Shown: in pieces, positions 3,571 to 39,289 of the stretch
Position numbering within the stretch: position 1 is the stretch's first letter
Layout of the letters: every line of letters begins with the position of its first letter
DNA from: a virus
Strand: one strand, 5' to 3'
DNA: 40,999 bases
Virus record (IMG/VR): IMGVR_UViG_3300035181_001311
Span: 1-40,999 of that record
Translations under genes and position numbers: made by a program
The notes under the pieces: generated by a model
Seen by the model: only the letters and a program-made list of their open reading frames with translations
Database searches by the model: none
Told to the model about the DNA's origin: nothing

Positions 3571-4009
3571 TTCGTTACGATCATTGGGTTTACTGTTGTT
3601 GATGTTTTTGTTTCCGACAATCCTCTCTGCATCAAATAATTTTACCGTTCCCATTACAAGCATTGATGTCCCCGAAAATACGATATCTGTAACAGATTTG
3701 TGGGCAATATTCACATTAACGACTACAAGATGGAGTAATGGAAATAAAATAATTGTAGTGTTGTATACTCAAGATACTCCAATAATGAAAACGTTTGTTA
3801 GAGAATATTTCGGGATAAATATTTATAGATTCGAGGAAGCGATCGACAGCAAAATAAACAACGGAAGAGGTGTTCCACCAACAGTCGTTGGTTCAGAAGA
3901 ACAGATGATCCACGAAATCTCTACCAAACCTGGTAGAATTGGATTTGTAAAATCGTATATTGTAGTGGGAGATGGACATCGTGGAATCAGGCGTATTGCA
4001 GTCAATTAA
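3530..4009 (+). CDS. PstS-like periplasmic substrate-binding domain protein
   Basis: The N-terminus holds a signal peptide (LLLLMFLFPTILSAS, cleavage near residue 34), so the product should be periplasmic. The mature part matches the short PBP-like family related to phosphate-binding PstS: the DLWAIFT segment, RWSNGNKIIVVLY, a FVREYFG helix, GRGVPPTVVGSEEQMI and the pattern KPGRIGFV (family form PGAIGYV). Length (159 aa) fits the short bacterial members. It overlaps the genes on both sides, implying coupled expression with the membrane protein and the porin. The ligand is unknown, and phosphate is only a family-based guess. The chosen ATG has AGAAG close upstream; a later start is possible. 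Confidence 0.7.
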   Translation: MKTQFNHYGRNHINSLRSLGLLLLMFLFPTILSASNNFTVPITSIDVPENTISVTDLWAIFTLTTTRWSNGNKIIVVLYTQDTPIMKTFVREYFGINIYRFEEAIDSKINNGRGVPPTVVGSEEQMIHEISTKPGRIGFVKSYIVVGDGHRGIRRIAVN

Positions 4010-5168
4010 ATTAATTATTGTTACTTTATTTTTAAGTGTGCCAGTATATTCATATGGAAATGATACTTCAAACTTTCACTTATTCGGGACATTCGCATCT
4101 ACAATATTGAATACCAACAATAGTGCTTATAATACCAGATCTGGAACTTCATTGGATAATCAATTAATATTAAACACTACTTATGATATCACAGAAAATG
4201 TTGGGTTTGTAGCAGCAATTGACATAACAAAGGGTATCCGAAAGGATTATGAAGCTGATATAGATTATGCTACACTGTCATATTCAACATCTATTTGTTG
4301 TGATACAGTTGGAACAATTGGAGTAGGTCGAGTTAAATATGATATTGGTTTGTTAGAAAACCAAAGAAATAACCCACATTCTAGAACAACTATATATCTT
4401 CCTTTTTCTACTTATTGGCCAGCGTCAAATTATTGTGCACAATCTGTAGATGGAATTCAGCTTGATATTACTAAAGAAATCAAGGGAATAGGAAGTGTTT
4501 CTTTTACTTCTTCTTATGGGAACGGAGTAATGAAAAACCAAGATCAAGCTCCTGCTTTTTATGGATATTTTCATGATCAATTATTTGAAGGTGATTCGTT
4601 TGCTTTAACAAGTCCCGTTCTCTCGAATACAATAAAATTTGAAAACCTTAATTGGACTATACAATACAACCAAACGGAACTTAATGGAGAATATAATCAG
4701 AACTATACTATTCCAGGGTGTGATCCTTTGAAACACAGAAGTTGTAATGGTAATCCATATCTTCCAAAAAATTATTCGTTTTTTCACAAATACAGTACAC
4801 TGGGAATTAGATATACAGATGGTGATTGGACCATAATGGGAGAATATGTTAAACACAATTTTCCGACAGAACCTGTTGGATATTTTGTTAGAGTTGAAAA
4901 ACAGCTATCTTCAGACTTTACAGGATTTGCGGGTTATTCAAAATTTGAACACACAAACAAAAATGCTCCATCTCCATCTGCTGTTGCAACGTGGGCCAGA
5001 GAAGGAAGAGAAGTCGTTGTTGGGGGTGTATATCACTACGATCAAAACAATGAACTTAAAGTTGAATATCATCAAGGGTATGGAACGGGTTGGTTCCCCT
5101 ATCCAGCCGATAAACCAAATTGGAATATGTTTGCTGTCCAATATGTTCACTCATTTTCTATAAGATAA
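3972..5168 (+). CDS. Porin-like outer-membrane beta-barrel protein
   Basis: About 398 residues with a signal peptide near the start (LIIVTLFLSVPVYSYG). A series of alternating amphipathic strands follows, rich in Tyr, Asn, Gly and Thr (for example VGFVAAIDI, GTIGVGRVKYDIG, WTIMGEYV, EVVVGGVYHY). The last strand, MFAVQYVHSFSIR, is barrel-like. Proteins with this layout are outer-membrane porins of Gammaproteobacteria. The ATG at 3972 has GGGAG too close; a GTG at 3981 with proper spacing may be the true start. The 5 prime end overlaps the PBP gene by 38 bases. A porin in a phage genome is unusual and suggests acquisition from a host. Confidence 0.75.
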   Translation: MDIVESGVLQSIKLIIVTLFLSVPVYSYGNDTSNFHLFGTFASTILNTNNSAYNTRSGTSLDNQLILNTTYDITENVGFVAAIDITKGIRKDYEADIDYATLSYSTSICCDTVGTIGVGRVKYDIGLLENQRNNPHSRTTIYLPFSTYWPASNYCAQSVDGIQLDITKEIKGIGSVSFTSSYGNGVMKNQDQAPAFYGYFHDQLFEGDSFALTSPVLSNTIKFENLNWTIQYNQTELNGEYNQNYTIPGCDPLKHRSCNGNPYLPKNYSFFHKYSTLGIRYTDGDWTIMGEYVKHNFPTEPVGYFVRVEKQLSSDFTGFAGYSKFEHTNKNAPSPSAVATWAREGREVVVGGVYHYDQNNELKVEYHQGYGTGWFPYPADKPNWNMFAVQYVHSFSIR

Positions 5169-9787: not shown

Positions 9788-11103
9788 TTGGATGTGTCCT
9801 TTTCGAATAGGTTGTGGAAAACAGGATATATATCACTTGGTTCTTCAATTATAGCCATTGCAAAATTCTCATGTTTCCCCAATAAGTAATGTTGGTATAC
9901 CTGCGACATGATGTTATCAGGATTATTAACTTGGACGTAAGCATAATATTGTGACATAGGAAGAATATCTTTAATAAGCGTTTCGACAACCTGTTGACAA
10001 TCATCCACATCGTTATCTCCATCACTTGCTTGGCACACATAAATGTTCCATTTCGATGGATCATATCGTTCTTCAATTATGTTTTTCACGAGAGTTGTTG
10101 CGGAAGAAACCATGGTTCCGCCTGATTCACGAGAATAAAAGAAGTTTTCTTCGTCTACTTCAAAAGCTGCTGTGTGATGTTTAACAAATACGACATCCAC
10201 ATATTTGTAATTTCGGTGTAGAAATAAATACAATAACATGAAAAATCGTTTTGCTAAATCTTTTTCATATTCACCCATACTACCAGATACGTCCATGACA
10301 CAAAACATCACAGCTTGAGTAATTGGGGTTCGAACTATCTCAAATCTGTTATAACGCAAATCAATTGAATCAATAAATGGAACAGCCTTAATTTTCTTTT
10401 TAAGAACAGCTATTTCATGTTCAAGTTGAATAATCCGAAGTTGTTGTTCTTCACACTCCGTTATTAGATTTCCATTTTCATCTTTATTATTTTCAATGAA
10501 TTCATAAAGTTCCGAAAGTTCTGTTTCTAGCTCTCGTAGTTTTCGTTTTTTTGGAGTACGTAAAGCAGCCCGCCGTCCAACTGACTGTCGAAGAGAACGT
10601 ACGTAGTTTAATTTACTTGGATTACCATCAACAGCAAACCCAGCTCGTTTTACCTTTATTTCTTCTGTTTGAGCAAGCCCCTTTTTAACTAAATCGGGAA
10701 GCTCCAAATCTTCAAAGAACACATCCATGTATTCGTCGTGAGTAATAGCGAACTCAAAGTCATCGTTCTGTTCACCACCTCCACCGGAACCATTCCCACC
10801 CTTACCATCTTGAGGAGGTGGTTTTGGGATTCTGTCTCCTGGAACATATTTTTTATTTCCAGGTAAGATACGTTCAAGTTCACCTGAATCAGACGAATGA
10901 GTAAAATGAGGTTCATTAATATCTTTTGTTGGGATATTAACATTCTGGTCGCCAGGTGAAATAATATCACGAATGTTTCCCGATGTGATAGATTTCTTAA
11001 CAGCTTCCCGAACTCTACTTTTTACTCGCCGGATAAAACGCTGACGATTTGCAGAGCTTTTATTTTTACCATTCTTTCTTCGGTCCAAAATTTGAAAACT
11101 CAT
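9784..11103 (-). CDS. yeaH: YeaH/UPF0229 (DUF444) vWA-domain protein
   Basis: 439 residues, close to E. coli YeaH (about 427). The basic N-terminus (MSFQILDRRKNGKNKS) and a Gly-rich linker (GKGGNGSGGGGEQ, about 100-112) are typical. A coiled-coil lies around 185-238, and the MIDAS metal site DVSGSMG is at residues 271-277 with the SGGT and SDGDN segments after it. Family members act with PrkA and SpoVR in stationary-phase and nitrogen-starvation responses. The gene has a sigma70-type promoter at 11130-11158 and a start with GGAGT upstream. It overlaps spoVR by 4 bases and lies 222 bases downstream of prkA. Confidence 0.93.
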   Translation of the reverse strand: MSFQILDRRKNGKNKSSANRQRFIRRVKSRVREAVKKSITSGNIRDIISPGDQNVNIPTKDINEPHFTHSSDSGELERILPGNKKYVPGDRIPKPPPQDGKGGNGSGGGGEQNDDFEFAITHDEYMDVFFEDLELPDLVKKGLAQTEEIKVKRAGFAVDGNPSKLNYVRSLRQSVGRRAALRTPKKRKLRELETELSELYEFIENNKDENGNLITECEEQQLRIIQLEHEIAVLKKKIKAVPFIDSIDLRYNRFEIVRTPITQAVMFCVMDVSGSMGEYEKDLAKRFFMLLYLFLHRNYKYVDVVFVKHHTAAFEVDEENFFYSRESGGTMVSSATTLVKNIIEERYDPSKWNIYVCQASDGDNDVDDCQQVVETLIKDILPMSQYYAYVQVNNPDNIMSQVYQHYLLGKHENFAMAIIEEPSDIYPVFHNLFEKDTSK

Positions 11104-11129
11104 TCTGTACTCCGTGAATAATAGTTTCT

Positions 11130-11158
11130 ATTATATATCAAAAATTGCCCCCTTACAA
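11130..11158 (-). promoter_or_regulatory. Sigma70-type promoter for yeaH-spoVR
   Basis: TTGTAA (11158-11153), 17-base spacer, perfect TATAAT (11135-11130) on the minus strand, 27 bases before the yeaH ATG. The rest of 11104-11325 contains a hairpin at 11282-11306 and no convincing gene. Confidence 0.65.
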
Positions 11159-11281
11159 CAGATGTTACTTTTGAAGTATGAAGTGTGAACAGTGATACTG
11201 TGTGTGGTTTACGTTGTTTATCGAATCTGCAAATATTAACAGCGACAGAAAATAACAAAAAGAAGTGTAAGTATGAACAAT

Positions 11282-11306
11282 AGAGAGGAACCAATGGTTC
11301 CTCTCT
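11282..11306 (-). terminator. Hairpin after prkA
   Basis: AGAGAGGAACCA pairs perfectly with TGGTTCCTCTCT across a one-base centre, 20 bases downstream of the prkA stop. The T-run after it is poor, so it may be a weak terminator or an mRNA-stabilising hairpin. Confidence 0.55.
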
Positions 11307-11325
11307 AACTCCTCGATTATAAAGA

Positions 11326-13248
11326 TTAATTATTTTTGCGCCATCTAAGGAACCACTCCACCAATAATCTTACTTGTTTTTCAGTGTATCCTTTTTCAAC
11401 CATACGCTGAACAAACCCATTATGTTTTTTCTGATCTTCAGAACTTCCCTTTGAAGTAAAGGTTATTACGGGCAATAATTCTTCTGTTGAAGCGAAGATT
11501 CGTTTTTCGATTACATCTTTAATCTTCTCATATGATTTCCAGTCAGGAGTCTTTCCACCATTAGCAGCTCGTTGACGAAGAACGTAACTGACAACTTCAC
11601 TGCGAAAATCTTTTGGATTGGCGATTCCGCTTGGTTTCTCAACTTTTTCCAATTCTGAATTCAAAGCACTCCGTTCGTACATTTCACCTGTATCAGGATC
11701 TCGAAAATCAACATCTTGAATCCAAGCATCCGCATATGTCAAGTACCGCTCGAATAGATTTTGACCATATTCATCTGCATTTTCAAAGTATGCAGTCCGT
11801 ATTTCTTTGTCCAAATATTCTGCATATTTTGGAGCCAGAACACTTTTAATGAAATCAATATATCTTTCTTCTGTGTCTGGTGGAAATTGTTCTTGTTCGA
11901 TCTGTTTTTCGAGAACATACATTAAATGAACTGGATTCGCAGCAACTTCTTGAGAATCATAATTGAACACCCTCGAAAGGATCTTATATGCAAATCGAGT
12001 TGATAATCCACTCATGCCCTCATCTACACCTGCTTCGTCGTGATACTCTTGAATGGGTTTCGCCTTAGGATCACTATCTTTCAGATTTTCTCCATCATAT
12101 ACACGCATCTTTGAATACAAAGCAGAATTACCAGGTTCTTTCAATCGTGTCAATACAGCGAAACGAGCCATCATTTCCAGTGTTCCAGGCGCACATGGTG
12201 ATGCATACAAAGCACTACCTCGAAGAAGCTTGCGGTAAATTTGGGTTTCATCTGATACACGCAAGCAATATGGAACTTTAACAATATAAACACGATCCAA
12301 AAATGCTTCATTCGTTTTATTGTTTCGGAAAGCAGTCCATTCACTTTCGTTACTATGTGCAAGAATTACACCACTAAATGGAATAGCTGCACCCTCAACA
12401 CCATTATAATTGCCTTCTTGTGTCGCTGTTAACAGAGGATGTAAAATTTTGATTGGTGCTTTGAACATTTCAACGAATTCAAGAATCCCCTGATTGGCTA
12501 AACACAGACCACCACTATAACTGTATGCATCTGGATCATCTTGAGAGTATTCTTCCAATTTTCGAATATCTACTTTACCAACGAGAGACGAAATATCTTG
12601 GTTGTTTTCATCACCAGGTTCTGTTTTTGTAATTGCAACTTGGTTAAGACGAGAAGGCCAACGTTTAACAACTCGGAATTTGGAAATATCTCCATCAAAT
12701 TCACGTAAGCGTTTTGCGGCCCAAGGAGACATAATGTGTCCAAGATAACGGCGATCAATACCATAATTATCTTCTAAAAACTTTCCGTGTTCTGTAACGT
12801 TGAATAATCCAAGAGGTGATTCAAAGATTGGAGAACCTTCAATCGCATAAAATGGAATTTTTTCCATTAATTCTTTCAAACGTTCTGCAATACTAGACTT
12901 GGAACTTCCGACAGGACCAAGCAGATAGAGGATTTGTTTCTTCTCTTCTAGACCTTGAGCAGCGTGTGTAAAAAATGAAACTATCTGCTCAACAGAATCT
13001 TCAATACCATAAAAATCTTCAAAAGCAGGATAAACTTTAATGACACGATTCATAAAAATACGGCTAAGGCGGGGATCGTCTTTCGTGTTTACCATTTTTG
13101 GTTCCCCTATTGCTTGTAACATACGCTCTCCAGCTGTAGCATATGTTAACGGCTCTTTTTTGCATAATTCAAGATACTCTTGAATACTCATAGTTTCAGT
13201 TGAGTGTTCTTTATATTGTGAGCGATACAAGTCAAAGATATTTTCCAT
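11326..13248 (-). CDS. prkA: PrkA/YeaG serine protein kinase (AAA+ type)
   Basis: 640 residues, essentially full length against E. coli YeaG (644). Walker A GPVGSSKSS is at 111-119, with the family segments EGSPIFESPLGLF, YLGHIMSPWAAKRL, the GLCLANQGILEF region with EMFKAP, and GVILAHSNESEW. The C-terminal region includes GLSTRFAYKILSRVFN. Bacterial PrkA is an AAA+ protein with reported serine kinase activity, encoded next to yeaH and ycgB. Here the three genes keep that order. A sigma70-type promoter lies at 13295-13323 and AGGAGAT precedes the ATG. No obvious loss of motifs is seen, so it is probably active. Confidence 0.95.
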   Translation of the reverse strand: MENIFDLYRSQYKEHSTETMSIQEYLELCKKEPLTYATAGERMLQAIGEPKMVNTKDDPRLSRIFMNRVIKVYPAFEDFYGIEDSVEQIVSFFTHAAQGLEEKKQILYLLGPVGSSKSSIAERLKELMEKIPFYAIEGSPIFESPLGLFNVTEHGKFLEDNYGIDRRYLGHIMSPWAAKRLREFDGDISKFRVVKRWPSRLNQVAITKTEPGDENNQDISSLVGKVDIRKLEEYSQDDPDAYSYSGGLCLANQGILEFVEMFKAPIKILHPLLTATQEGNYNGVEGAAIPFSGVILAHSNESEWTAFRNNKTNEAFLDRVYIVKVPYCLRVSDETQIYRKLLRGSALYASPCAPGTLEMMARFAVLTRLKEPGNSALYSKMRVYDGENLKDSDPKAKPIQEYHDEAGVDEGMSGLSTRFAYKILSRVFNYDSQEVAANPVHLMYVLEKQIEQEQFPPDTEERYIDFIKSVLAPKYAEYLDKEIRTAYFENADEYGQNLFERYLTYADAWIQDVDFRDPDTGEMYERSALNSELEKVEKPSGIANPKDFRSEVVSYVLRQRAANGGKTPDWKSYEKIKDVIEKRIFASTEELLPVITFTSKGSSEDQKKHNGFVQRMVEKGYTEKQVRLLVEWFLRWRKNN

Positions 13249-28478: not shown

Positions 28479-29309
28479 TTAAGATAACCAACCCATTTTC
28501 GTCGACAACACATCAAAAAAGTTCCAATCTTTACTTAAAATAGCTTTAGCCTTTTGATCTGATTGTTTAACTGTAATCTCTACTTCTTTTGTATCACTCG
28601 ATTGGACAAAGGCTTTTTGTCCGTCGGAACGAATCACAACCGGTAACCCTTGTGAGTATTTTGCTTCAATTCGAATCGTGGAGTGTCCACTCACAACAAT
28701 AGGTCGGGAAGCCATTTTCAAAGAGGCAACTGGGACAATTTCAATAGCTTCCATAGAAGGATGTAAAATTGCGCCACCTGCTGATAATGCATATGCTGTT
28801 GAACCCGTTGGTGTAGATATTACCACACTGTTTGCACGGTGACTTCCAGCAAATTCACCATCTATAAATAACCCAAAGTTTAAAATAGTATCTGACTCTG
28901 AATGGGCAATTGTTAATTCATTCATCGAAATAAATTCAGACCCACAAACAGAAGTTTTTAACATCATTCGTAGAAGAATTGGTGGAACGTATGATTGATC
29001 AGACAATAATGGAGCCAGTGTTGTAAATAATTGTTCACGAAAAACATCTGTCAAAAAACCAACTTTCCCAGCATTTACACCAATAGCAAGAGCCCCAACA
29101 GCAGCTGCTTTTTTTAGGGTGTATAGCATTGTTCCATCCCCACCTACTGCTATAAACAATGTGTTTGAATTATAAGTAGAATTTGAATCTAACACAACAG
29201 GAATATTGTATTTTTCAACTAAATGAATCATAGACGATACAATGTGTTTTACAATAACATCTTCTTTATTATCCAGTTTTTGGATAATAACCACTCGATC
29301 AAACTTCAT
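28479..29309 (-). CDS. nadK: NAD kinase
   Basis: Phosphorylates NAD to NADP. ATG at 29309 (MKFDRVVIIQ) has GGAG 7 bases upstream. The nucleotide motif GGDGT is at residues 56-60, the NE pair is at 130-131, and TPTGSTAYALSAGG spans 166-179. At 276 residues it matches bacterial NadK. Downstream is a decayed HD/NADAR pair; upstream is a terminator and a likely sigma70-type promoter. A truncated second copy is at 31079-31736. In infection it could raise NADP or change NAD pools for nucleotide reduction or anti-defence; inference. Confidence 0.93.
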   Translation of the reverse strand: MKFDRVVIIQKLDNKEDVIVKHIVSSMIHLVEKYNIPVVLDSNSTYNSNTLFIAVGGDGTMLYTLKKAAAVGALAIGVNAGKVGFLTDVFREQLFTTLAPLLSDQSYVPPILLRMMLKTSVCGSEFISMNELTIAHSESDTILNFGLFIDGEFAGSHRANSVVISTPTGSTAYALSAGGAILHPSMEAIEIVPVASLKMASRPIVVSGHSTIRIEAKYSQGLPVVIRSDGQKAFVQSSDTKEVEITVKQSDQKAKAILSKDWNFFDVLSTKMGWLS

Positions 29310-29339
29310 GTAAATCTCCAACCGATTTTAATATTTGAC

Positions 29340-29368
29340 ATAATACTATAAATATTTAATAAACACAA
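29340..29368 (-). promoter_or_regulatory. Candidate sigma70-type promoter for nadK
   Basis: TTGTGT (29368-29363), 17-base spacer, TATTAT (29345-29340), minus strand, 31 bases before the nadK ATG. An ACACAAC/GTTGTGT hairpin (29364-29387) overlaps the -35 region. Confidence 0.4.
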
Positions 29369-29409
29369 CACTTAGGACCGTTGTGTAGTTCGGGGAACGG
29401 AACGCCCCA

Positions 29410-29440
29410 AAAATAAAACCCCGAAAAGGGGTTTTATTTT
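29410..29440 (-). terminator. Intrinsic terminator after the copy-1 lipoprotein gene
   Basis: AAAATAAAACCCC pairs perfectly with GGGGTTTTATTTT across a GAAAA loop. The stem overlaps the lipoprotein stop at 29439 by two bases. It separates that gene from the nadK promoter. Confidence 0.85.
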
Positions 29441-29897
29441 ATTGAGGGGCGTATCTTAATTTGGTTGACATTTTAAGTTGACCAGCAAAAGGAGACAACT
29501 GTTGGTTCCAACTGGGTGCTAAATCTTCAAGTTTCTCACTGTTTGTTTGTTCAACGATAATTTGTTGTTTGCTGACCTCTCTTAAAGTAACTAATAGATT
29601 GTTGTATCCCCCATCCAAACACTTAGTATATAATACAGTAAACGCTTCCGTTGGTGTTTTGTAATTATTAGAATAAACATTAAGTCTTACTGCTTTATAA
29701 GGAAAAGTTAACACACTCGATTTAACAGAATATTGGTCTAAGTCTTCTATTCCCACATTCATTCTTTTTAACGTATCAACTGTTCTTGCATATGAAGCTA
29801 CAACTTGGCACTGTGTATCAACTACCGGTTGCTGTGTTGGGATTTCACTACAAGCTGAAAGAGTTAATACAAAACATACTGCTATAAATTTCTTCAT
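29439..29897 (-). CDS. Phage lipoprotein, copy 1 (152 aa)
   Basis: Signal peptide with lipobox (VLTLSAC, lipidated Cys 16), then CQVVASYARTVDTLKRMNV and LTFPYKAVRLNVYSNN, AFTVLYTKC, GGYNNLL. The mature part is probably a small helical periplasmic domain with a conserved Cys. It is a clear paralogue of the protein at 31785-32177. It lies between a (damaged) L,D-transpeptidase-type gene and nadK, and its start overlaps the small membrane gene stop (TAATG). Function unknown. Confidence 0.75.
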   Translation of the reverse strand: MKKFIAVCFVLTLSACSEIPTQQPVVDTQCQVVASYARTVDTLKRMNVGIEDLDQYSVKSSVLTFPYKAVRLNVYSNNYKTPTEAFTVLYTKCLDGGYNNLLVTLREVSKQQIIVEQTNSEKLEDLAPSWNQQLSPFAGQLKMSTKLRYAPQ

Positions 29898-30043
29898 TAG
29901 AAAATGAACTTATATATCTGTTTAGCATAATGGATTAAACCGGTCCCGATTACTATACCAATTGCTATACCAATTGCTATACCAATTACTATACCAACTA
30001 GTGCCACAGTTACAAATTCCCCAAAAAATACTAGAATCTTCAT
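29897..30043 (-). CDS. Small membrane protein with Gly-Ile repeats (48 aa)
   Basis: ATG at 30043 overlaps the upstream stop (ATGA). The product reads MKILVFFGEFVTVALV, then GIVIGIAIGIAIGIVIG, a hydrophobic span coded by four copies of a 12-base repeat, then a short basic tail (YAKQIYKFIF). It is probably a single-pass inner-membrane peptide. It has no counterpart in the second copy of the duplicated block. Confidence 0.6.
   Translation of the reverse strand: MKILVFFGEFVTVALVGIVIGIAIGIAIGIVIGTGLIHYAKQIYKFIF
29953..30000 (-). repeat. Four tandem 12-base repeats (ctataccaatt + g/a)
   Basis: CTATACCAATTG occurs twice and two near copies follow, in frame inside the small membrane gene, encoding GI-x-I units. 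Such a run can expand or contract by whole codons, changing the length of the hydrophobic span. Confidence 0.9.
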
Positions 30044-30300
30044 TTTCTTATTTCCAATTTATCAGTTAAACAACAATTTACCAACTTATCATAAACTTCA
30101 GGTTCCACATTAATACAACCATGTGTTATCATGTGTTGTTTGGGATTCTCTGATAATATACGAGCAGCACGATGTTCAGATGGTCTCAAAAGCCAAAGTC
30201 GATGAATTGCGTATACTTTTTTTGAATCCTCGTAAAACTGCAAAACGTCTCCACCGTAACCCGGATCTTTTGGTGTTGAAAGTTTCGAAAACTTCAACAT
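30040..30300 (-). pseudogene. L,D-transpeptidase-like protein, copy 1, lacking its N-terminal part
   Basis: Reads TPKDPGYGGDVLQF, then VYAIHRLW and ITHGCINVEPEVYDKL, the YkuD-type H...S/THGCI motif with the catalytic Cys (THGC, about residue 62). The intact copy at 32208-32564 begins with TPIGTFPI before PGYGGD; here that part is replaced by NADAR-derived sequence (30301-30378) in the same frame. The catalytic Cys and His are kept, but the fold is incomplete. It could be a new fusion or a decaying gene; I favour decay. Confidence 0.7.
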
Positions 30301-31078: not shown

Positions 31079-31736
31079 CTAAGTCAACCAACCCATTTTT
31101 GTAGACAGAACATCGAAAAAGTTCCAATCGTTCGAGTGAAGCATTTTCGCTTTATTTTCAGTACATTTTACAACAATTTCGATTGCTTCACGACTATTAT
31201 TCCAGGTCAGCACTTTTTGTCCATCAGATCGAATGATGATGGGACCTTGCCGTTCGTTACTATTAGCAACGATTCTGACAACAGATTTTCCACTAACGGC
31301 AATCGGCCGAGAAGCCATTCGCAGAGAAGCAACAGGAACGATTTCGATTGCATCCATATACGGATGTAGTATCGCCCCTCCAGCAGACAAAGAGTATGCC
31401 GTAGATCCAGTTGGGGTCGCTACGATCACACTGTTCGCTCGGTGACTTCCGGCAAAACGATCATCAATGAACATATCAAAACTCAGAATTGTATCTGACT
31501 CGAGATGAGCGATCGAAAACTCATTGACAGATACGGCAATATTATAGTCAATTTCAGTCTTGGTCTCGATAGAAACAGAAAGAAGCAATCGTTCATCCAC
31601 ATCAACAAGTGGTTTAGTGAATAGTTTTTCTAAACTGTTCACTAAAAATTCACGAACAGAAGAGAAATCATTCAAAAACCCTAACCTGCCGGTGTTAATT
31701 CCGATTGTGTGCCCCATAGGCAGCGGCTAATTTCAT
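31079..31736 (-). pseudogene. Truncated, frameshifted second NAD kinase copy
   Basis: The frame from ATG 31717 encodes 212 residues equal to NadK from GIN-T-GRLGFLN onward, including NEFSIAHLESD, TPTGSTAYSLSAGG and the C-terminal FDVLSTKMGWL. The GGDGT motif is absent: upstream ATG 31736 gives MKLAAAYGAH, the expected next piece of NadK, but in another frame. A missing CA in the CACACA run would restore the frame. Everything before that piece (about 60 residues) is gone, replaced by the end of the lipoprotein gene. It cannot be a normal NAD kinase. Confidence 0.75.
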
Positions 31737-31784
31737 CGTTGAGTAATATATGGGTTGGCCTTATTCATTTTTTCAACCATCTCA

Positions 31785-32177
31785 TTAATAATTCGTTGTT
31801 GACGTGTTGCTTCTTCCTCCGCTGCTTTTTTTCTTCTCTTCTGCAATTCTTCTTCGTTCATCTTCTTGGAGTGCTTGTAAAAGTGTTGAATATCCAGCCT
31901 CATCACATCTGTGATAAAACTTAGTAAACGCATCCGCAGGGGTTTCAGTTTTTGTAGCATATACTTCACTTCTCACCTTTCGATACGGAAATGTGAGTGC
32001 AATAGGAACTTGCGAAAATGAATCAATGTCTGATTCAGAAACATTCATATCACGAAGTGTAGCAACTGTTCGAGCGTACTTTGCAACTTGGATACATTCA
32101 GTATTTTCAGGTTTTGGTGGGGGCGACGAGCTACAACCAAAAACAAACAGGGGTAAAGCAAACAAAATCGATTTCAT
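31785..32177 (-). CDS. Phage lipoprotein, copy 2, with frameshifted C-terminus
   Basis: ATG at 32177 follows GGAGGA. Lipobox is PLFVFGC; mature part contains CIQVAKYARTVATLRDMNV, LTFPYRKVRSEVYA, ADAFTKFYHRC and GYSTLLQALQED, paralogous to 29439-29897. After EEKKK the frame runs through seven A bases to a short Ser/Thr end. Removing one A would instead continue as AAEEEATRQQRIINEM and end YITQR, with TGA at 31735-31733 overlapping the ATG of the truncated nadK. The homopolymer may reflect a real mutation or a sequencing slip. Confidence 0.7.
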   Translation of the reverse strand: MKSILFALPLFVFGCSSSPPPKPENTECIQVAKYARTVATLRDMNVSESDIDSFSQVPIALTFPYRKVRSEVYATKTETPADAFTKFYHRCDEAGYSTLLQALQEDERRRIAEEKKKSSGGRSNTSTTNY

Positions 32178-32207
32178 AAAGTCCTCCATGGGGATATTAT
32201 ACACGAT

Positions 32208-32564
32208 TTACTTCTTGATTTCAAGTGGTTCTTTTGAACAACACGCTGTTAATCGTTCGTACACTTTAGACTCAACGTTAATACAACCACTTGTGATTAT
32301 ATTATCTTTTGGGGTAGCTGTTGCTAAACGTTGCTCACGTTTTTGCTTAGGGTTAAATTTCCAGAGACGATGAATAGCATAAAGGGTGGTTGATGTTTCT
32401 TTGAATACTAAAATATCTCCACCATACCCTGGTTTCTTTGTAGTCATATGTGTGATTGGAAACGTTCCGATTGGAGTATTTTTACCAATTAATATAGGGT
32501 GGCATTCCTCTATGTTGTTAACAGAGAAACAAATTGTTGCCACTAAAATGCTTACAGTAATCAT
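32208..32564 (-). CDS. L,D-transpeptidase (YkuD)-like protein, intact copy
   Basis: ATG at 32564 (MITVSILVATICFSV, a signal peptide) is preferred, because an earlier ATG would translate through the terminator at 32593-32618. Family motifs: KNTPIGTFPITH, PGYGGDILVF, LYAIHRLW and IITSGCINVESKVYERL, matching YkuD H...SxGC with catalytic His and Cys. Such enzymes cross-link or edit periplasmic peptidoglycan; a phage version might remodel the wall or act in lysis. At about 118 residues it is compact. It is the first gene of the duplicated unit, followed by the lipoprotein. Confidence 0.8.
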   Translation of the reverse strand: MITVSILVATICFSVNNIEECHPILIGKNTPIGTFPITHMTTKKPGYGGDILVFKETSTTLYAIHRLWKFNPKQKREQRLATATPKDNIITSGCINVESKVYERLTACCSKEPLEIKK

Positions 32565-32592
32565 ATGTGTATAGTTTATAGTATTAGAATAA

Positions 32593-32618
32593 AAAATGGG
32601 GACCGAAGTCCCCATTTT
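32593..32618 (-). terminator. UUCG-type intrinsic terminator of the exported-protein operon
   Basis: On the minus strand the RNA would read GGGGAC UUCG GUCCCC, then a run of Ts: a tetraloop hairpin extended by AAAAT/ATTTT pairing. It lies directly after the stop at 32621. Confidence 0.9.
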
Positions 32619-32620
32619 CA

Positions 32621-33061
32621 TTAACCACCAATTTTCTTGTCGGGCGCTGGAGGCAGCGTCTCAGGTGCCACTACTGGTTGAGCAGGTAGCGGAACTGTCA
32701 CCACTCGTTCTATCGTGTTTGTTACGATAATCGGAGCAGGAGGAACTGGTTTGTTAACTGGAACGATGAAAATATATTCACCACGTCCCAATTTAGGCGT
32801 CCATTGGTATCCGTCACAAACTGTGACTTTATCTTTCAACTCACACTGAACTTCAACAACCCTCGGCCAGATGACCGCAGCTGTTGGAAAGCTAGGAAGA
32901 TATTGAGGAGCAAACAGCATTCCATCTGGCATGAGATATGTTGCTTCTCTACCTTCAAGACCTGGAGTTCCGGAACCAAGAGGCGTACGTTCTATTACCA
33001 AATCTCCTGCCAGGGCAGAGAACGAAGCCGCTGCAAGTAGTGTCGTAATTAAAACTTTCAT
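32621..33061 (-). CDS. Exported protein (146 aa), third gene of the riboswitch operon
   Basis: Clear signal peptide (MKVLITTLLAAASFSALA, cut after ALA). Mature part includes a Gly/Pro loop and PRVVEVQCELKDKVTVCDG, with two Cys likely forming a disulfide, then YIFIVPV and a Pro-rich, Val-rich tail (PAPIIVTN, VPLPAQPVV). Similar exported proteins occur in phage operons of unknown role. Its codon use is richer in G and C than the AT-rich neighbours to its left. It ends at the terminator. Confidence 0.75.
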   Translation of the reverse strand: MKVLITTLLAAASFSALAGDLVIERTPLGSGTPGLEGREATYLMPDGMLFAPQYLPSFPTAAVIWPRVVEVQCELKDKVTVCDGYQWTPKLGRGEYIFIVPVNKPVPPAPIIVTNTIERVVTVPLPAQPVVAPETLPPAPDKKIGG

Positions 33062-33088: not shown

Positions 33089-33646
33089 TTACTTGTCTTC
33101 TTTTTTGGTAGGGCAAGTAAAACCAGTCAGTTCCAACGCCTCGCGATTCTCACTGTCCATGCACATGCGAGCCATAGAAGCAGCACGCATACCCATGTTC
33201 CAAAGTTCACGAGAGTTCTTCAACATTTTGCAGTTCTTGTCAGTCCACGTAGAACCGAGACTGAAACCGAAGCCAGCAACACCGATACCACCAGAAGTAG
33301 AACCCATACAAGTGTCGTTCGAGCTTGTTAGAGCAGGACCGCCAACAGAAGGCACGTTTTTAATGGTCTGTGTTCCACTGTAGTTCACGTTTTGACCGGT
33401 TGTTCCTGACTGGACAATGTTCTGAGTCGTGGTACCGTTGACTGTTGTGTTCACATCAGATGTTGTTCCACCAGAGTAGTTAACATTCTGTGTGGTTGTA
33501 GTTGGAATGGCCGGGTTGTTGTAGATAATGGTTTGGGAGTTACCATCACTCGACGCATACGAATCAGACGTAGAACTCGAACTTGTACCAGCAGCAAACA
33601 CCGGCATCGACATTGTCAACACGATAATAAGAGCAATTTTTTTCAT
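33089..33646 (-). CDS. Exported protein with repeats (185 aa), second gene of the riboswitch operon
   Basis: Signal peptide MKKIALIIVLTMSMPVFA. The mature N-terminal half is Ser/Thr/Asn-rich with repeated NVNYSGTT-like units (QNVNYSGG and QNVNYSGTQ) and TTTQN; the C-terminal half contains SSNDTCMGSTSGG, GSTWTDKNCKML, SRELWNMGMRAASMARMCMD and GFTCP, with four cysteines. Such C-terminal blocks occur in other phage exported proteins. No enzymatic motif is seen. Its position after the riboswitch-controlled gene suggests it is made when c-di-GMP changes. Confidence 0.8.
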   Translation of the reverse strand: MKKIALIIVLTMSMPVFAAGTSSSSTSDSYASSDGNSQTIIYNNPAIPTTTTQNVNYSGGTTSDVNTTVNGTTTQNIVQSGTTGQNVNYSGTQTIKNVPSVGGPALTSSNDTCMGSTSGGIGVAGFGFSLGSTWTDKNCKMLKNSRELWNMGMRAASMARMCMDSENREALELTGFTCPTKKEDK

Positions 33647-33675
33647 TTACTTTTTCCTTTTTGATGGAATTGTTG

Positions 33676-33702
33676 TACTATGCGTGGTTACCACGCATAG
33701 TA
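33676..33702 (-). other. Perfect intercistronic hairpin in the riboswitch operon
   Basis: TACTATGCGTGGT and ACCACGCATAGTA form a 13-bp stem around one base, between the first and second genes. No T-run follows, so it is more likely an mRNA-stabilising or processing element than a terminator. Confidence 0.7.
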
Positions 33703-33720
33703 ATTCAGTCAACTTAACTA

Positions 33721-34479
33721 TTACTGAGGAATGTTGCCGTAGGTAACGTTAGTCAGTGTAGTTGCGTTCGCATTGGTGTAGCTACCAGCATCATCATTAC
33801 CTGGACCAGTTTGGCAACCACCGTGGCAACCACCGTTGCTCAAGCTATACACCTGATGTGCAGCAGGAACGTCAGAGGTACCAGTGGATGCAGCACCAAC
33901 TCCAACGTAGTCAACGTGAGGAATAGTGACGGTGTGGTGATGGATGCTGGCGGTCTCGTCGTGGGTAACAATCAACAAACCAGTTGCACCCTGTGCTTCG
34001 AAGTTGGCGCTTTGTGAAGCAAAAGACGAGTGACTTTGATCAGTTCCGGCATTTGCCCAAGTTTTGGTCAACGCGCTTGCAGTTCCACCAACACCATTAC
34101 GTGTTTTAGCTACGTCGGAAACAGCTACACCAAGTGCGTGGGCTTCACCAGTACCGTTTCCTGTAGAAACGTTCTTAGCAAACGAGCCACCCATAGTGGA
34201 TGCTTCACCAGTTACTGTAGTGACATCACCAAACACAGTAGCTGTGGTTGGAACGTTACAGTTGGGAACGGTAACGGACAACATCCCACGACGAACATTA
34301 GAATCGGTGTCGCCAGCGCCAACTGCAAAGTTGCCAGCAGTTGAATGGGAAGTACCACCATTACCAGCTTGGGCATAGGTAGACGTTTGACTATTTGCAT
34401 AAACAGTAGCGTCGGAACCAGTAGCAAAGGCAGCAGTAGAGATTGAAGCAAGAGCAAGAGCAATAAGGGTTTTTTTCAT
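33721..34479 (-). CDS. Exported Ala/Ser/Thr/Gly-rich protein under the c-di-GMP riboswitch
   Basis: ATG at 34479 follows TTGGAGATCC. Signal peptide MKKTLIALALASISTAAFA, then a long low-complexity chain rich in Ala, Gly, Ser, Thr and Asn (for example AQAGNGGTSHSTAGNFAVGAG), with a His-rich part (SIHHHTVTIPHVDY) and two Cys near GGCHGGCQTG. It looks like a surface or matrix protein and recalls the style of biofilm or adhesion proteins, without a defined family. As the first gene after the aptamer, it should be the main riboswitch target. Function unknown. Confidence 0.8.
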   Translation of the reverse strand: MKKTLIALALASISTAAFATGSDATVYANSQTSTYAQAGNGGTSHSTAGNFAVGAGDTDSNVRRGMLSVTVPNCNVPTTATVFGDVTTVTGEASTMGGSFAKNVSTGNGTGEAHALGVAVSDVAKTRNGVGGTASALTKTWANAGTDQSHSSFASQSANFEAQGATGLLIVTHDETASIHHHTVTIPHVDYVGVGAASTGTSDVPAAHQVYSLSNGGCHGGCQTGPGNDDAGSYTNANATTLTNVTYGNIPQ

Positions 34480-34522
34480 TTTTTGGATCTCCAATTAGAT
34501 TAGTGTTACATCTAAGAAGATT

Positions 34523-34602
34523 CCAGGTAGTTCCGCTGCCATGGATTTCTCTTTAGGCCGGGTTACTTTGCGTCCCAATCTTTCGAATTGGTTTGCCCTT
34601 TA
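34523..34602 (-). promoter_or_regulatory. c-di-GMP-I (GEMM) riboswitch aptamer
   Basis: On the minus strand the leader contains the ordered GEMM hallmarks: AGGGCAAACC, a stem closed by CGAAAG (tetraloop GAAA), GGGACGCAAAGTAACC, then CGGCCTAAA and, after a loop, ATGGCAGCGGAACTACC. These match the conserved Vc2-type c-di-GMP-I aptamer core, including the tetraloop and its receptor. Downstream, TTAGAT/ATCTAA can form a hairpin just before the ribosome site (34496-34516), a plausible expression platform. It lies between the strong promoter and the start at 34479. Confidence 0.9.
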
Positions 34603-34662
34603 CAAGAACTTTCTTTTTCTTTTTAGTTCAATGTCAGAACTAAATTTCTAACATCTGACACA

Positions 34663-34691
34663 AGTATATATTATTAAAATATCTATGTCAA
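34663..34691 (-). promoter_or_regulatory. Strong sigma70 promoter of the riboswitch operon
   Basis: Perfect TTGACA (34691-34686), 17-base spacer, TATACT (34668-34663), minus strand. The start site near 34656 falls in an inverted repeat (TGTCAGA...TCTGACA, 34632-34660), which might be an operator or a 5 prime hairpin. Confidence 0.8.
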
Positions 34692-34751
34692 CATGCAATT
34701 TTAGTGGGTAAAAGGGTATTTAAGCTCAGAAGATGATGTAGTATTTTTACA

Positions 34752-35072
34752 CTATTCTTTAGAAGCAACGACGCGTTGAACATTGCTCTTCAATACTTCC
34801 AACGTCAGCAAATCGATTAGCATTTTTGTCTTCAGCTCTTTATGAAATTCAAGAAGCAACTCAATTGACTCACTAAGAGTCATGTTCTCCCAACCCCTTA
34901 TTTTGTTATATCGATCTTCCAGTTCATCTACTACAGTAGTAGAAATTCTGAAGGCTTCACTGGAGTCAATTGTGGATGCATATTGCTCAATGTATCCACA
35001 TAACGTCTTTACATCTTCCCGACGTTGGGTCACAATATCCGCTGGTGTTGGAAATTTCAATACGTTGCTCAT
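34752..35072 (-). CDS. Hypothetical helical protein (106 aa)
   Basis: Begins MSNVLKFPTPADIVTQRRED, then mostly acidic helix (TVVDELEDRYNKIRGWENMTL; ELLLEFHKELKTKM). No motif. Its ATG at 35072 lies 2 bases after the purA stop, so it is probably made from the purA transcript. Its end is close to the promoter of the riboswitch operon, with only a short spacer (34692-34751) between. Confidence 0.7.
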   Translation of the reverse strand: MSNVLKFPTPADIVTQRREDVKTLCGYIEQYASTIDSSEAFRISTTVVDELEDRYNKIRGWENMTLSESIELLLEFHKELKTKMLIDLLTLEVLKSNVQRVVASKE

Positions 35073-35074
35073 GA

Positions 35075-37597
35075 TTACACCAATCTGGACATTAAATTCC
35101 TGGTTGGACTATACGACAACAGCACCGAATCAAATTTTTTACCAAAAGACGAAAGGTTGTAAATCAAATCAAATTTACATCCAGTGACCACTTCACCGTC
35201 TTCTACATACTTAACTTTTTCAGGAAGTTGGTTCATGCACGTAACAACAAGTTTCGGACTCAATCTAACACCTGCCACTGTTTCCAAATCATTGATGATA
35301 CTTTCTTCCAACAAATCAAAGTTCAGTGGTGCATACCGCAACGTTCCTTGGTGTTCATTGGGAACGTTCGTATTATCAATAATTCCTTCATAGATTGGTC
35401 CATCTACTTCAAACGGCAAGGGCCCTGCTCCGTGTCTTGTCAGGTACGACCGAGTGATATAGAACACTTCGGCTTCATGAACTCCAATCTCTTTCAAAAT
35501 TTCACAAGCGTTGAACACACCTGTCCTTGACCGAGTTACATGAGGAAACCAGTGGTGAAATTCATCAAGCAACAATCCCTGCGCACCTTCAAAAACAACC
35601 GTATCGTAGTTGTGTAGGAACTCCGGGTTGGTAACTGTGGTTATGTTTTCCAGCATATACATACACCGATCAATGAACCATTCGATTGCTTCAACAAACA
35701 TATAAAACTCATCAAGAGCACCACATGCAACCCCAAGTTGTTCAAGGCGGCTTTGTGTATAATCATCTCGAATTTGTTTTAATTTCTTACGAAGTTCGTC
35801 TGGATTAAGAATATCAGCAACAGTTGTACCAAACCCAGGAAATGCTCGAGTCGTATTGCGCTCAACAGTTTCATTGATTCCAAACCCACAACTTCCATGT
35901 TTACGTTCTCCACGAGCGCGTTCAACAGTTTGATTGATTGCTACATCAAATGGAGTTACAAGATAGGCATTCACATCAACAAATACTTTTGGCTTGATTC
36001 CCTTATGATTAAAAGAATTATGCTCAGAATAGAAAGCAACTGGGTCCACGACAAAAAACCTTGACAGATATGTCGGTTTTCCAATTAATGTCCCTGATCC
36101 AAAATGATGGAACACATGACGAAGGCCTTCGGGAGTTTCTACTGTGTTATGAGATATACATCCATTGGCAATATAACTATGTGTTATAGGCATCGTAACA
36201 TCATATACCTGTTCGATACTAAAATTCATGTCAACAGATTCAATATTGATTATATGATAGTTCGTTGCTACGTTTACAATATTTTCAAAATTTTCAATCT
36301 TTTCGTTGACCACAAACCCAGTTCGGATTCCTTCACTATCATGACATACACAATTTAGTTGTTTATATATTGCCTTTTTGATATTTGGGGGGACTTTAAG
36401 TACATATCCTTTGGTGTTACAATTACTATTTGCGTTTTGTTTATACGCCAACAACTCAACCACTTTATTGTTTTTAATATCAGACTGGAATCCTATGTTT
36501 TGTGCAAACAATTCAATAGCATCATATGATGCAATAATTAAATCATACGATCGTTGACAATTTGACCGCTTTTTATTTAATTTATTTGTTATAACTTTTG
36601 AGTGAATTCCAAATAAATACAGCAATTGTTGGACCTCTGACACCAGTTCCCAAGATATGTTAGAAAACCCAATTTGACCATATGTGGTTGTTTTTTGTTT
36701 ATGAAATTTAATAGTTCCGTCTGCGTCAAACAAACCTCGTATATAACTACGAATTATACCTCTGGTACCCTGTAATACAAACTTTGGGGTACACTTGTTA
36801 ACACCAGTTGTAATTGCAACCCCCAATTGGTCTCGTAAAATGTTAATAAGGTCACTACTCTCAAACGCAATAGTAATACATTGGTCACTCGAATGATGGG
36901 ACTGTGTTTTTACAGGAATGTTCATGAGTGTCAACGCAGAAACAACATAATCAATTGTGTCCTGTTGAGAAATGTGACATTGGATCGAAATTCGGCTTCC
37001 ATGAGAAGCATAATGTCCATCTCCATTAATAATTCCAGTTAAAAAAGCTAAAAATTCAAGATCGATAATATCAACATCAATCTTTCGTTTATTGTGAACA
37101 TGATCAGTTTCTGATTGAACGTACTGAATGTTAGGAATAACACCCAAATATTGGTCGAAATATCTTGGAACTATAAATTGGTGGACATTTGGGTTTAAAT
37201 CTCCTATTTTAACCCACTCAAGTTGAGCAGTATTCCCATTCCAAACATAGTATTTGTGTGCATGAGTCCCTTTAAGTACTACTCCATTTTGAAGGGTTAT
37301 TCGGTTTACTTGTTTTGAGTGTTCGGTGAACAGCCAACTCGTGTGTTCAATATCTCCGTTCATATTAATTAGCGGAAAACTTACATCGCTGTTAGTAATA
37401 TTTCCCACAACATCTTTAATATATTTAAGTCCAAACTGAGTTGTGATTAAAGTATCTCCAGTTTGACAATGTCCTGCCTGAGAGCCTCCATTAAACCGAA
37501 CAACAATCGTATTATCAACTTGGGAAGCAAGATAATCAACTGTGCCACCTTTCCCTTCGTCTCCGAAATTTGCCCCAATTACTATCTGTGCTTTCAT
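35075..37597 (-). CDS. purA: Adenylosuccinate synthetase interrupted by an intein
   Basis: Extein about 399 residues. The active-site loop IGANFGDEGKGGTVDYL (residues 7-23) keeps D13, G15 and K16, and GGSQAGH (37-43) is the second active-site loop. Later extein parts include ETVERNTTRAFPGFGTT, EGAQGLLLDEFHHWFPHVT and FYITRSYLTRHGAGPLP, all PurA-like. The enzyme makes adenylosuccinate from IMP, Asp and GTP. D13, commonly replaced in PurZ enzymes of Z-genome phages, is retained here. The intein spans residues 44-484. The start has AAAGAGAG upstream and a sigma70-type promoter at 37635-37663. Confidence 0.93.
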   Translation of the reverse strand: MKAQIVIGANFGDEGKGGTVDYLASQVDNTIVVRFNGGSQAGHCQTGDTLITTQFGLKYIKDVVGNITNSDVSFPLINMNGDIEHTSWLFTEHSKQVNRITLQNGVVLKGTHAHKYYVWNGNTAQLEWVKIGDLNPNVHQFIVPRYFDQYLGVIPNIQYVQSETDHVHNKRKIDVDIIDLEFLAFLTGIINGDGHYASHGSRISIQCHISQQDTIDYVVSALTLMNIPVKTQSHHSSDQCITIAFESSDLINILRDQLGVAITTGVNKCTPKFVLQGTRGIIRSYIRGLFDADGTIKFHKQKTTTYGQIGFSNISWELVSEVQQLLYLFGIHSKVITNKLNKKRSNCQRSYDLIIASYDAIELFAQNIGFQSDIKNNKVVELLAYKQNANSNCNTKGYVLKVPPNIKKAIYKQLNCVCHDSEGIRTGFVVNEKIENFENIVNVATNYHIINIESVDMNFSIEQVYDVTMPITHSYIANGCISHNTVETPEGLRHVFHHFGSGTLIGKPTYLSRFFVVDPVAFYSEHNSFNHKGIKPKVFVDVNAYLVTPFDVAINQTVERARGERKHGSCGFGINETVERNTTRAFPGFGTTVADILNPDELRKKLKQIRDDYTQSRLEQLGVACGALDEFYMFVEAIEWFIDRCMYMLENITTVTNPEFLHNYDTVVFEGAQGLLLDEFHHWFPHVTRSRTGVFNACEILKEIGVHEAEVFYITRSYLTRHGAGPLPFEVDGPIYEGIIDNTNVPNEHQGTLRYAPLNFDLLEESIINDLETVAGVRLSPKLVVTCMNQLPEKVKYVEDGEVVTGCKFDLIYNLSSFGKKFDSVLLSYSPTRNLMSRLV
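36146..37468 (-). mobile_element. Large intein with two LAGLIDADG motifs in PurA
   Basis: Residues 44-484 (441 aa). Block A begins CQTGDTLITT; block B is VVLKGTHAHKYYVW (T-x-x-H). LAGLIDADG copies are LAFLTGIINGDGHY (183-196) and RSYIRGLFDADGTI (283-296). Block F is VYDVTMPITHSYIANG, and the end CISHN precedes Thr as the +1 residue. Removal rejoins QAGH with TVETPEG, matching the uninterrupted enzyme. It is inserted exactly at the conserved AGH active-site loop. All splicing residues and both acidic residues of the endonuclease (D in GDG and DADG) are present, so it looks active. Confidence 0.95.
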
Positions 37598-37634
37598 GTG
37601 TTAAACTCTCTTTGGATTTGTTACAGATGTGGGA

Positions 37635-37663
37635 ATCCTACAGTGAACTATACATAGAGTCAA
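37635..37663 (-). promoter_or_regulatory. Sigma70-type promoter for purA
   Basis: TTGACT (37663-37658), 17-base spacer, TAGGAT (37640-37635), minus strand, 38 bases before the purA ATG and directly after a terminator. Confidence 0.65.
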
Positions 37664-37690
37664 CAAGAAAGCCGCTAAGCGGCTTTCTTG
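37664..37690 (-). terminator. Terminator after the vWA gene
   Basis: CAAGAAAGCCGCT pairs with AGCGGCTTTCTTG around one base, 23 bases beyond the vWA stop at 37713. A moderate T-rich tail follows on the minus strand. Confidence 0.75.
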
Positions 37691-37712
37691 ATCACTACCA
37701 TAAATGAAACAA

Positions 37713-38600
37713 TCAATCAAACAACGCGTGTTTCACAGTTTTACGAACACCAGCATCTTGCCACGACGCCACAACTTCTTCAGGATCTGCCCCCTCGGAT
37801 ACTTGCATTGCAGACAGAATCACTTGGGAAAGGTGGTTGTAATCAGAAAGACAAATGGCGCGCTTTCCGAGCAACTTACCCCAAGCAGCCTTCACTGCAG
37901 GCAGGGCACGCTTGGCAAAGTTTCCTTGTTCCACAATGATGTGAAACACGAAGTACTTTTCTTCAGCACGAGCCAACAGATCTTCCGAACTGATGTCGGC
38001 TTGTTCAGTCATACCGAAGATTCGTTCAATGTTTCGCTTTTCCAGTTGCTTCGGAGGATTCTCATCACCGATCGTGAACAGGTACCCCTTCTCACCACGC
38101 TTGTCAAAGCTGTCGATCTTCGTGCGGGTTGCCGCGAAGTACCAAGGGAGGTGGTAACCTTCGACATCATTTCCACCACCGCCACCTTCAACGAAGATGT
38201 CCTTCAGTTGCTGCACGATACGAATATCGGGCTCAAACTGTGATACTTGAAGAGGAGACGAGTCATAGATTTCGTCACCAATTGCCATAAACATGATGTG
38301 TGGATCTTCAACAGGTTTCGTGTCAATGATCCCTTCAATCAAAGTTCCAAGACCCTCTTTCGCCATCTCGTGAGCAATTACACCCATCGATCCGGTCACA
38401 TCCAAACCGATGATGATTGGCCTGGATTTCGGGTTTTCTTCACTATCACAACTTTCGCGAACCAACACACCCTTAGGATCAAGATCTTTGTTGATTGATC
38501 GGCTCGTGTATACATCCCTCACATTTTTTGTTGCAGATGCAGTATCTGCAAAAGACCTGTATGCGGTCCTACTATCTTCATCCCATCGTCCGCGTCCCAT
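37713..38600 (-). CDS. vWA-domain protein (295 aa)
   Basis: After a charged N-terminus (MGRGRWDEDSRTAYRSF) the MIDAS site is GLDVTGSMG (65-73). Later acidic and Gly-rich blocks are FVEGGGGGNDVEGYHL and LFTIGDENPPKQLEKR. The layout is that of free-standing vWA proteins in bacteria, which act in metal-dependent protein assembly rather than as enzymes. The gene stands 11 bases downstream of the Met-rich protein gene and probably works with it. It has ATG 38600 with AAGGAGAACG upstream. It is distinct from the YeaH-type vWA protein at 9784. Confidence 0.8.
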   Translation of the reverse strand: MGRGRWDEDSRTAYRSFADTASATKNVRDVYTSRSINKDLDPKGVLVRESCDSEENPKSRPIIIGLDVTGSMGVIAHEMAKEGLGTLIEGIIDTKPVEDPHIMFMAIGDEIYDSSPLQVSQFEPDIRIVQQLKDIFVEGGGGGNDVEGYHLPWYFAATRTKIDSFDKRGEKGYLFTIGDENPPKQLEKRNIERIFGMTEQADISSEDLLARAEEKYFVFHIIVEQGNFAKRALPAVKAAWGKLLGKRAICLSDYNHLSQVILSAMQVSEGADPEEVVASWQDAGVRKTVKHALFD

Positions 38601-38611
38601 AGTCGTTCTCC

Positions 38612-39289
38612 TTACTTGTCACGGTCAAAAAAGTTGCTCATCGGGTTTTTCCCACTTCCATCCTTGTTCTTGCTCATCATACCCATCATCATCATCATTG
38701 GCAACATTTGTCCCATTCCACCCATTGCAGGAGCGGTAGTTCCATCAGCAGCCGTCACACCAGCGCCCATTTGCGACATCAAGATCATCGGCATCATGCT
38801 TTCCATGTCCATACCATCCCCACCCATCATCATCATGGGAAGCAACATGCTTTGCATACCTTGCAGTCCAGTGTTACCACCAGGCAGCATATTCATCAGA
38901 CTACGAAGAACCATCACACCTGAATCGAATCCCAACATTGCAACCTTCGGCGGGATAAACGACGTACGAGTGCCATCAGCCTTGAGAATTTTGAAACCTT
39001 TTGGCAGCTTTTCAACGACCCAACCTGTGGTTCCTTTTGCACTATAAATCAGGTCCCCAACATTAACCGAGTCAATCGGTGTGTTTTGTGCAAATGCGGG
39101 AACTGGCACACCGAACTGATCAAACAAATTCAGTACCGGTTGCGCATCATCACCTTCGCCGTCAACAGTGACGATACCGTCAGCAGTTTGAATGCCCACT
39201 TTTCCGGACATCAAATCCCAAACTACATTATCAACTCTCTTAAAGAAACGATCCATCAACTTATTGCTATTGAACATATTTTTCATCAT
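38612..39289 (-). CDS. Met-rich protein with Gly/Met repeats (225 aa)
   Basis: The chosen ATG at 39289 follows AGGAGTGAAAATC; an upstream GTG is less likely. Residues 1-110 form a normal domain (VWDLMSGKVGIQTADG, VNVGDLIYSAKGTTGW, KGFKILKADGTRTSFI). From about 110 the chain is dominated by Met and Gly (QGMQSMLLPMMMMGGDGMDM, then GGMGQMLPMMMMMGMM). Such Met-rich tails could bind copper or other soft metals, or act as a hydrophobic adhesive. Paired with the vWA gene. Phage and bacterial proteins with this pairing are of unknown function. Confidence 0.75.
   Translation of the reverse strand: MMKNMFNSNKLMDRFFKRVDNVVWDLMSGKVGIQTADGIVTVDGEGDDAQPVLNLFDQFGVPVPAFAQNTPIDSVNVGDLIYSAKGTTGWVVEKLPKGFKILKADGTRTSFIPPKVAMLGFDSGVMVLRSLMNMLPGGNTGLQGMQSMLLPMMMMGGDGMDMESMMPMILMSQMGAGVTAADGTTAPAMGGMGQMLPMMMMMGMMSKNKDGSGKNPMSNFFDRDK

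Follow-up and report, generated by a model that had tools for sequence, protein, structure and literature searches.

The window analysed here is the whole 40,999-base stretch of DNA in IMG/VR record IMGVR_UViG_3300035181_001311. On its minus strand, a leader with a c-di-GMP-I (GEMM-I) riboswitch aptamer lies between a sigma-70 type promoter and a run of genes for exported proteins. The first-pass annotation had placed this arrangement at 34490-34692, which is the correct span from the promoter to the Shine-Dalgarno (SD) sequence; the aptamer proper occupies 34523-34607. The promoter TTGACA-17-TATACT (34691-34663) is present as that annotation described and matches the consensus at 11 of 12 positions. 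This is the best score in the region, tied with one other site, and the whole region holds 21 promoter-like sites where 13.6 are expected by chance. By sequence, the SD is GGAG (34489-34492, minus strand), located 9 nt before the ATG at 34479.

A cmscan search of the Rfam library matched 34607-34523 (-) to RF01051, the c-di-GMP-I family, with a score of 64.2 bits (E 1.9e-10) against a gathering cutoff of 35 bits. The covariance search that the annotation had recommended as a check is thus significant, and the match covers model positions 1-87 of 87, which is the full length. RF01051 is the single Rfam family at curated cutoff in the window. The same search gave no match to the c-di-GMP-II riboswitch in the window and no match to RF01051 in 14 named control genomes. 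All of the GEMM-I motifs quoted in the annotation are found in the order given there. In the model alignment, the P2 loop reads UC-GAAA-GA (GNRA) and P3 carries the receptor-like letters CCUAAA/CAUGG, a resemblance at the level of sequence. The c-di-GMP-I aptamer at this locus is genuine, an ordinary member of RF01051 with nothing new within it.

Exported-protein cassette downstream of the leader

Gene 1 (33721-34479, minus strand) starts where the annotation had placed the first exported-protein gene. It encodes 252 aa, with a signal peptide followed by low-complexity sequence rich in S/T/A/G/N (59%), and is hypervariable past the signal peptide. The protein has no Pfam or PHROG match. Because gene 1 is hypervariable, sequence searches of named phages and IMG/VR yielded no relative, and its relatives were recognised solely through the neighbouring gene 2. 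Gene 2 (33089-33646, minus strand; phrog_20531) encodes an exported protein with a variable N-part and a conserved, Cys-containing C-part, and has distant relatives in Pelagibacter phages. Gene 3 (32621-33061, minus strand) encodes a small exported protein that is a conserved partner in the cassette. For genes 2 and 3, AlphaFold2 gave models of unusable quality (mean pLDDT of 48 and 52). The three signal-peptide proteins foreseen downstream correspond to genes 1-3, and a YkuD-like protein and a lipoprotein then follow.

Gene 4 (32208-32621, minus strand; phrog_38499) is YkuD/L,D-transpeptidase-like, a resemblance at the family level. PF03734 (YkuD) is matched by 8 of 12 members of the gene 4 family (best E 1.6e-5), with the window copy among those unmatched. 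In the YkuD motif HxnGC, the His and GC are invariant in the family, and the second His that normally precedes GC is lacking. A gene 4 profile gave nothing significant against solved structures, where YkuD entries appeared only at E about 0.3. Gene 5 (31785-32204, minus strand) encodes a lipoprotein and is the probable end of the same gene run. We infer from spacing and strand that genes 1-5 form one operon; gene 2 may have a ribosome site of its own and escape the switch.

The segment 28479-32621 contains two diverged copies (31079-32621 and 28479-30300) of a block of NAD kinase-like, lipoprotein and YkuD-like genes, and the first NAD kinase-like copy is without its N-terminal part. A weak PHROG match of the second lipoprotein (29897-29439) to 'Cor superinfection exclusion' (E 0.0019) was rejected as support for superinfection exclusion, as it covers the lipoprotein signal only.

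An S/T/A/G/N-rich ORF lies 3-92 bases upstream of gene 2 in 32 of the 39 IMG/VR and bacterial-contig loci in which gene 2 was callable, several of the exceptions being cut by contig ends or fused-looking. A signal peptide is recognisable in 30 of these 32 ORFs. The cassette is therefore widespread and has a hypervariable lead gene. No published name was found for this series of gene 1, gene 2, gene 3 and a YkuD-like gene. Of about 60 cassette loci only three have the riboswitch, which is therefore an addition that the cassette can do without.

Predicted expression platform

The aptamer can be closed by an extended P1 helix, in which the 5' strand AAGAAAGUUCU (34615-34605) pairs in register with GGAAUCUUCUU (34524-34514) at 10 of 11 positions. 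The strand GGAAUCUUCUU could instead serve as the 5' arm of a hairpin that sequesters the SD (34485-34524, minus strand; -9.9 kcal/mol). The 5' arm of this predicted expression platform is GGAAUCUUCUU continued to 34510, and the 3' arm is AUCUAAUUGGAGAUCC (34500-34485), which contains GGAG. The two pairings are mutually exclusive, and the form that buries the SD is the minimum-energy fold of the whole free leader. The annotation's hairpin adjoining the ribosome site is real: the segment 34530-34470 folds at -12.5 kcal/mol (z = -3.07), which was equalled in 1 of 200 shuffles. When both flanks were shuffled (n=2000), the strength of P1 was equalled in 1.5% of cases, the burial of the SD in 2.8%, and both together in 0.

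In the thermodynamic model, opening the SD in the window costs 6.5 kcal/mol in the free leader and 3.2 kcal/mol once the aptamer and P1 are fixed. A small UUGG/CCAA hairpin at the SD is still possible in the P1-held state. In the nearest-neighbour model, ligand and tertiary contacts must contribute about 9-12 kcal/mol before the bound fold is favoured, a large amount but one in line with the very tight binding reported for GEMM-I RNAs. No terminator-like site was found in the leader. The modelled folds point to a translational expression platform with a predicted direction of ON.

The preferred reading, to which we assign a probability of roughly three in four, is that a c-di-GMP-I riboswitch in the leader of a large-phage exported-protein cassette frees the SD upon ligand binding and turns translation ON. 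Without ligand, the strand 34524-34514 would pair with the ribosome-site region and gene 1 would go untranslated. Binding of c-di-GMP to the nascent aptamer would keep P1 closed and the strand occupied; since P1 is transcribed ahead of the SD, the ligand would have time to hold it. GGAG would then be free and translation of gene 1 would start, giving an ON switch that works without a transcription terminator. The variable exported protein would be made mainly in hosts rich in c-di-GMP (sessile or biofilm state), and the envelope proteins encoded behind gene 1 would probably be made under the same condition, if the effect is polar onto genes 2-5. This suggests that the phage times an envelope programme by the free-living or biofilm state of its host.

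Conservation of the leader and alternative readings

The comparative set for the leader consists of three sequences: the window and two relatives, G017 (IMGVR_UViG_3300037010_002052) and G029 (IMGVR_UViG_3300037010_003923). G017 was reached both by the GEMM-I pattern search of IMG/VR and by the search for gene 2 relatives. Its flanks are 98-99% identical to those of the window. Between the flanks, the aptamer (98.8% identical) and the platform (97.7%) stand out, followed by the stretch between promoter and aptamer (91%), against 63% for the upstream gene and 53% for mature gene 1, which makes the leader the most conserved stretch of a region that is otherwise 53-75% identical. The region between the flanks has either diverged or undergone exchange, and the mature gene 1 product of G017 is in effect a different protein from the window copy.

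The hypervariable block at 33387-39247 has sharp bounds between these nearly identical flanks. In G017 other sequence takes the place of gene 1 and of the 5' part of gene 2, and several genes that surround the adenylosuccinate synthetase in the window are missing. The window's adenylosuccinate synthetase-like gene (35075-37597; PHROG 1211, 2-aminoadenine pathway type) carries a large intein/endonuclease-like insertion.

The G017 promoter, TTGCCA-17-TATACT, is in the same place as that of the window. The G017 aptamer scores 58.2 bits and has one A.C mismatch in P3. P1 is kept despite an altered 5' strand, in which a G.U pair becomes A-U, a C bulge replaces an A.C mismatch and 5 nt are inserted. 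The modelled SD opening cost falls from 5.9 to 3.3 kcal/mol with the aptamer and P1 held. G029 has a diverged GEMM that, at 34.9 bits, misses the cutoff by 0.1 (E 3.2e-5 in a search of 501 bases); it lies 41 bases ahead of gene 1 in the same gene 1-gene 2 pair. The G029 leader is unlike that of the window in sequence; its P1 3' strand, AGUUAGUUAC, likewise shares bases with the 5' arm of an SD-burying hairpin (SD AAGGA), and holding P1 lowers the modelled opening cost from 3.4 to 0.8 kcal/mol.

These results bear on the possibility that the RNA does bind c-di-GMP and the switch is OFF, or acts mainly through transcription or RNA decay and not through ribosome access. Many c-di-GMP-I riboswitches, including those of C. 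difficile prophages, are OFF by termination (PMC7699646), which gives this possibility its precedent. However, the leader has no terminator-like hairpin, the reason for which transcription attenuation is ranked second, and the SD-burying hairpin is the one stable structure downstream that can replace P1. Since a held P1 also cuts the SD opening cost in all three leaders, an OFF or transcriptional switch is unlikely.

It could also be argued that the aptamer is a decayed or decoupled remnant of a bacterial leader that controls nothing important to the phage now. The rarity of the riboswitch among the cassette loci is consistent with decay, as are the sub-cutoff score of G029 and the P3 mismatch of G017. 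Against this, the leader is the stretch best conserved between the window and G017, an identity that a recent recombination tract could mimic or add to. Such a tract could not produce the parallel layout of G029, where the P1/SD logic is kept with unrelated sequence, and decay is accordingly given a low probability.

The ligand contacts of the class, which we take to be G20, A47 and C92 in the numbering of the V. cholerae Vc2 structure, have their equivalents kept in the alignments and sequences of the window, G017 and G029. Position 20 is G in all three, indicating c-di-GMP identity, and the mark of 3',3'-cGAMP GEMM-Ib (A at position 20) is absent from them. G20-type GEMM-I RNAs can bind cGAMP at lower affinity and cyclic dinucleotides may rise on phage infection of CBASS hosts; it is nevertheless very improbable that the RNA senses another cyclic dinucleotide (3',3'-cGAMP, a CBASS-type signal) to trigger an envelope or counter-defence response, given the G at the specificity position and a cassette in which no function related to defence was found.

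Phage setting and comparison with known systems

The window encodes a tail fibre protein, a tail-fibre-assembly-like protein, an Rz-like spanin, PhoH, NadV, a phage thymidylate synthase with an HNH insertion and a phage-type adenylosuccinate synthetase. Its PrkA-like kinase is 60-63% identical, over its length, to those of the uncultured phages LR745206, LR756502 and LR756504 (634-642 kb). The likeness of these phages to the window lies in this kinase; they have no c-di-GMP-I riboswitch and no gene 1 match. The kinase is also 68% identical to one in an entry named Enterobacter phage LAU1, where the gene is at the record edge, beside YeaH and away from the tail genes, and possibly belongs to host flank. 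Contigs of 257, 311, 350 and 415 kb from the gene 2 search carry a PrkA-like kinase at 57-62%. The full layout of genes 1-4 was confirmed in the 257-, 311- and 350-kb contigs; in the 415-kb contig, only a fused-looking exported protein was seen, with no clear gene 3 or gene 4. Jumbo phages are those with genomes above 200 kb; the record analysed here is a 41-kb fragment that has the kinase and the cassette in common with the 257-350 kb contigs, and from its gene content it is read as a fragment of a large tailed phage. The host is probably Gram-negative.

Several other features of the window were observed. SpoVR-like, YeaH-like and PrkA (YeaG)-like genes occur together at 7529-13248, and the SpoVR-like gene appears to carry an intein. 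The ORF at 3972-5168 is the sole long plus-strand ORF among the genes read; it has a signal peptide and the look of an outer-membrane porin-like barrel, and has no Pfam or PHROG match. The segment 13367-13696 clearly matches the cyclic-phosphate processing receiver domain cREC (PF20274, E 5e-24).

The annotation's remark that phage examples are rare is broadly right, although precedents come from C. difficile prophages (PMC3649979, PMC7699646) as well as from other IMG/VR contigs. In the part of the literature that was covered, the C. difficile prophages are the only phages with a described GEMM, and no large phage of the window's kind was found described as having a c-di-GMP riboswitch. The leader DNA gave only short chance matches to named phages. 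A GEMM pattern matched 24 IMG/VR contigs, 18 of which pass the Rfam cutoff; several of these 18 look like Bacillota prophages or host flanks.

Three other IMG/VR contigs, with gene roles assigned by reading their sequences, carry c-di-GMP-I riboswitches. In the 237-kb contig IMGVR_UViG_3300028797_000094, tandem riboswitches (2275-2462) lie ahead of exported-protein genes; this contig may read TGA as a sense codon, with 4 TGA inside a weak terminase match. The 150-kb contig IMGVR_UViG_3300014039_000016 has a riboswitch at 8261-8334, also ahead of exported-protein genes. The 14-kb contig IMGVR_UViG_3300028025_000878, which has phage coat-like and tail genes, has a riboswitch of 79 bits (10088-10170) directly before holin-, spanin- and peptidase-like lysis genes, where c-di-GMP control of lysis is possible.

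c-di-GMP is the master signal in the switch between motile and biofilm life, and these findings open to direct test whether phages sense it and adjust the expression of envelope proteins to it. The short leader, the simplicity of the predicted switch and the obvious choice of test mutations all favour such an experiment. If the preferred ON switch is true, gene expression would respond to host lifestyle in phages other than the temperate ones of Bacillota, and there would be a first clue to what the widespread, unnamed exported-protein cassette of large phages does. A broader and tentative proposal is that large phages have taken up c-di-GMP riboswitches on repeated occasions and use them to time envelope programmes according to how the host lives, with the window cassette ON at high c-di-GMP and exported proteins or a lysis cassette controlled elsewhere. 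Such repeated recruitment would amount to a general phage strategy in which the motile/biofilm decision is read directly through RNA.

The closest precedents are Cdi1_4 and Cdi1_5, the c-di-GMP-I riboswitches of the C. difficile prophages phiCD630-1/-2, in a phiCD119-type lysis module, where c-di-GMP lowers the downstream antitoxin transcript by termination (PMC3649979, PMC7699646). They share with the window the same aptamer class in phage DNA. However, they belong to temperate phages of a Gram-positive host and are OFF by termination, upstream of an antitoxin RNA encoded in the lysis region, whereas the window's riboswitch probably has a Gram-negative host, is predicted to be ON by SD release and precedes exported proteins. 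The aptamer resembles the V. cholerae Vc2-type GEMM-I in its full-length match, P2 GAAA tetraloop, P3 receptor and ligand-contact letters; it differs in being set before a large-phage exported-protein cassette and in having a platform sequence of its own. The cassette itself shares its gene order and protein types with IMG/VR contigs of up to 385 kb, nearly all copies of which, unlike that of the window, are without a riboswitch. The aptamer class and its presence in phages are known already; what is new here is the setting in a large-phage exported-protein cassette.
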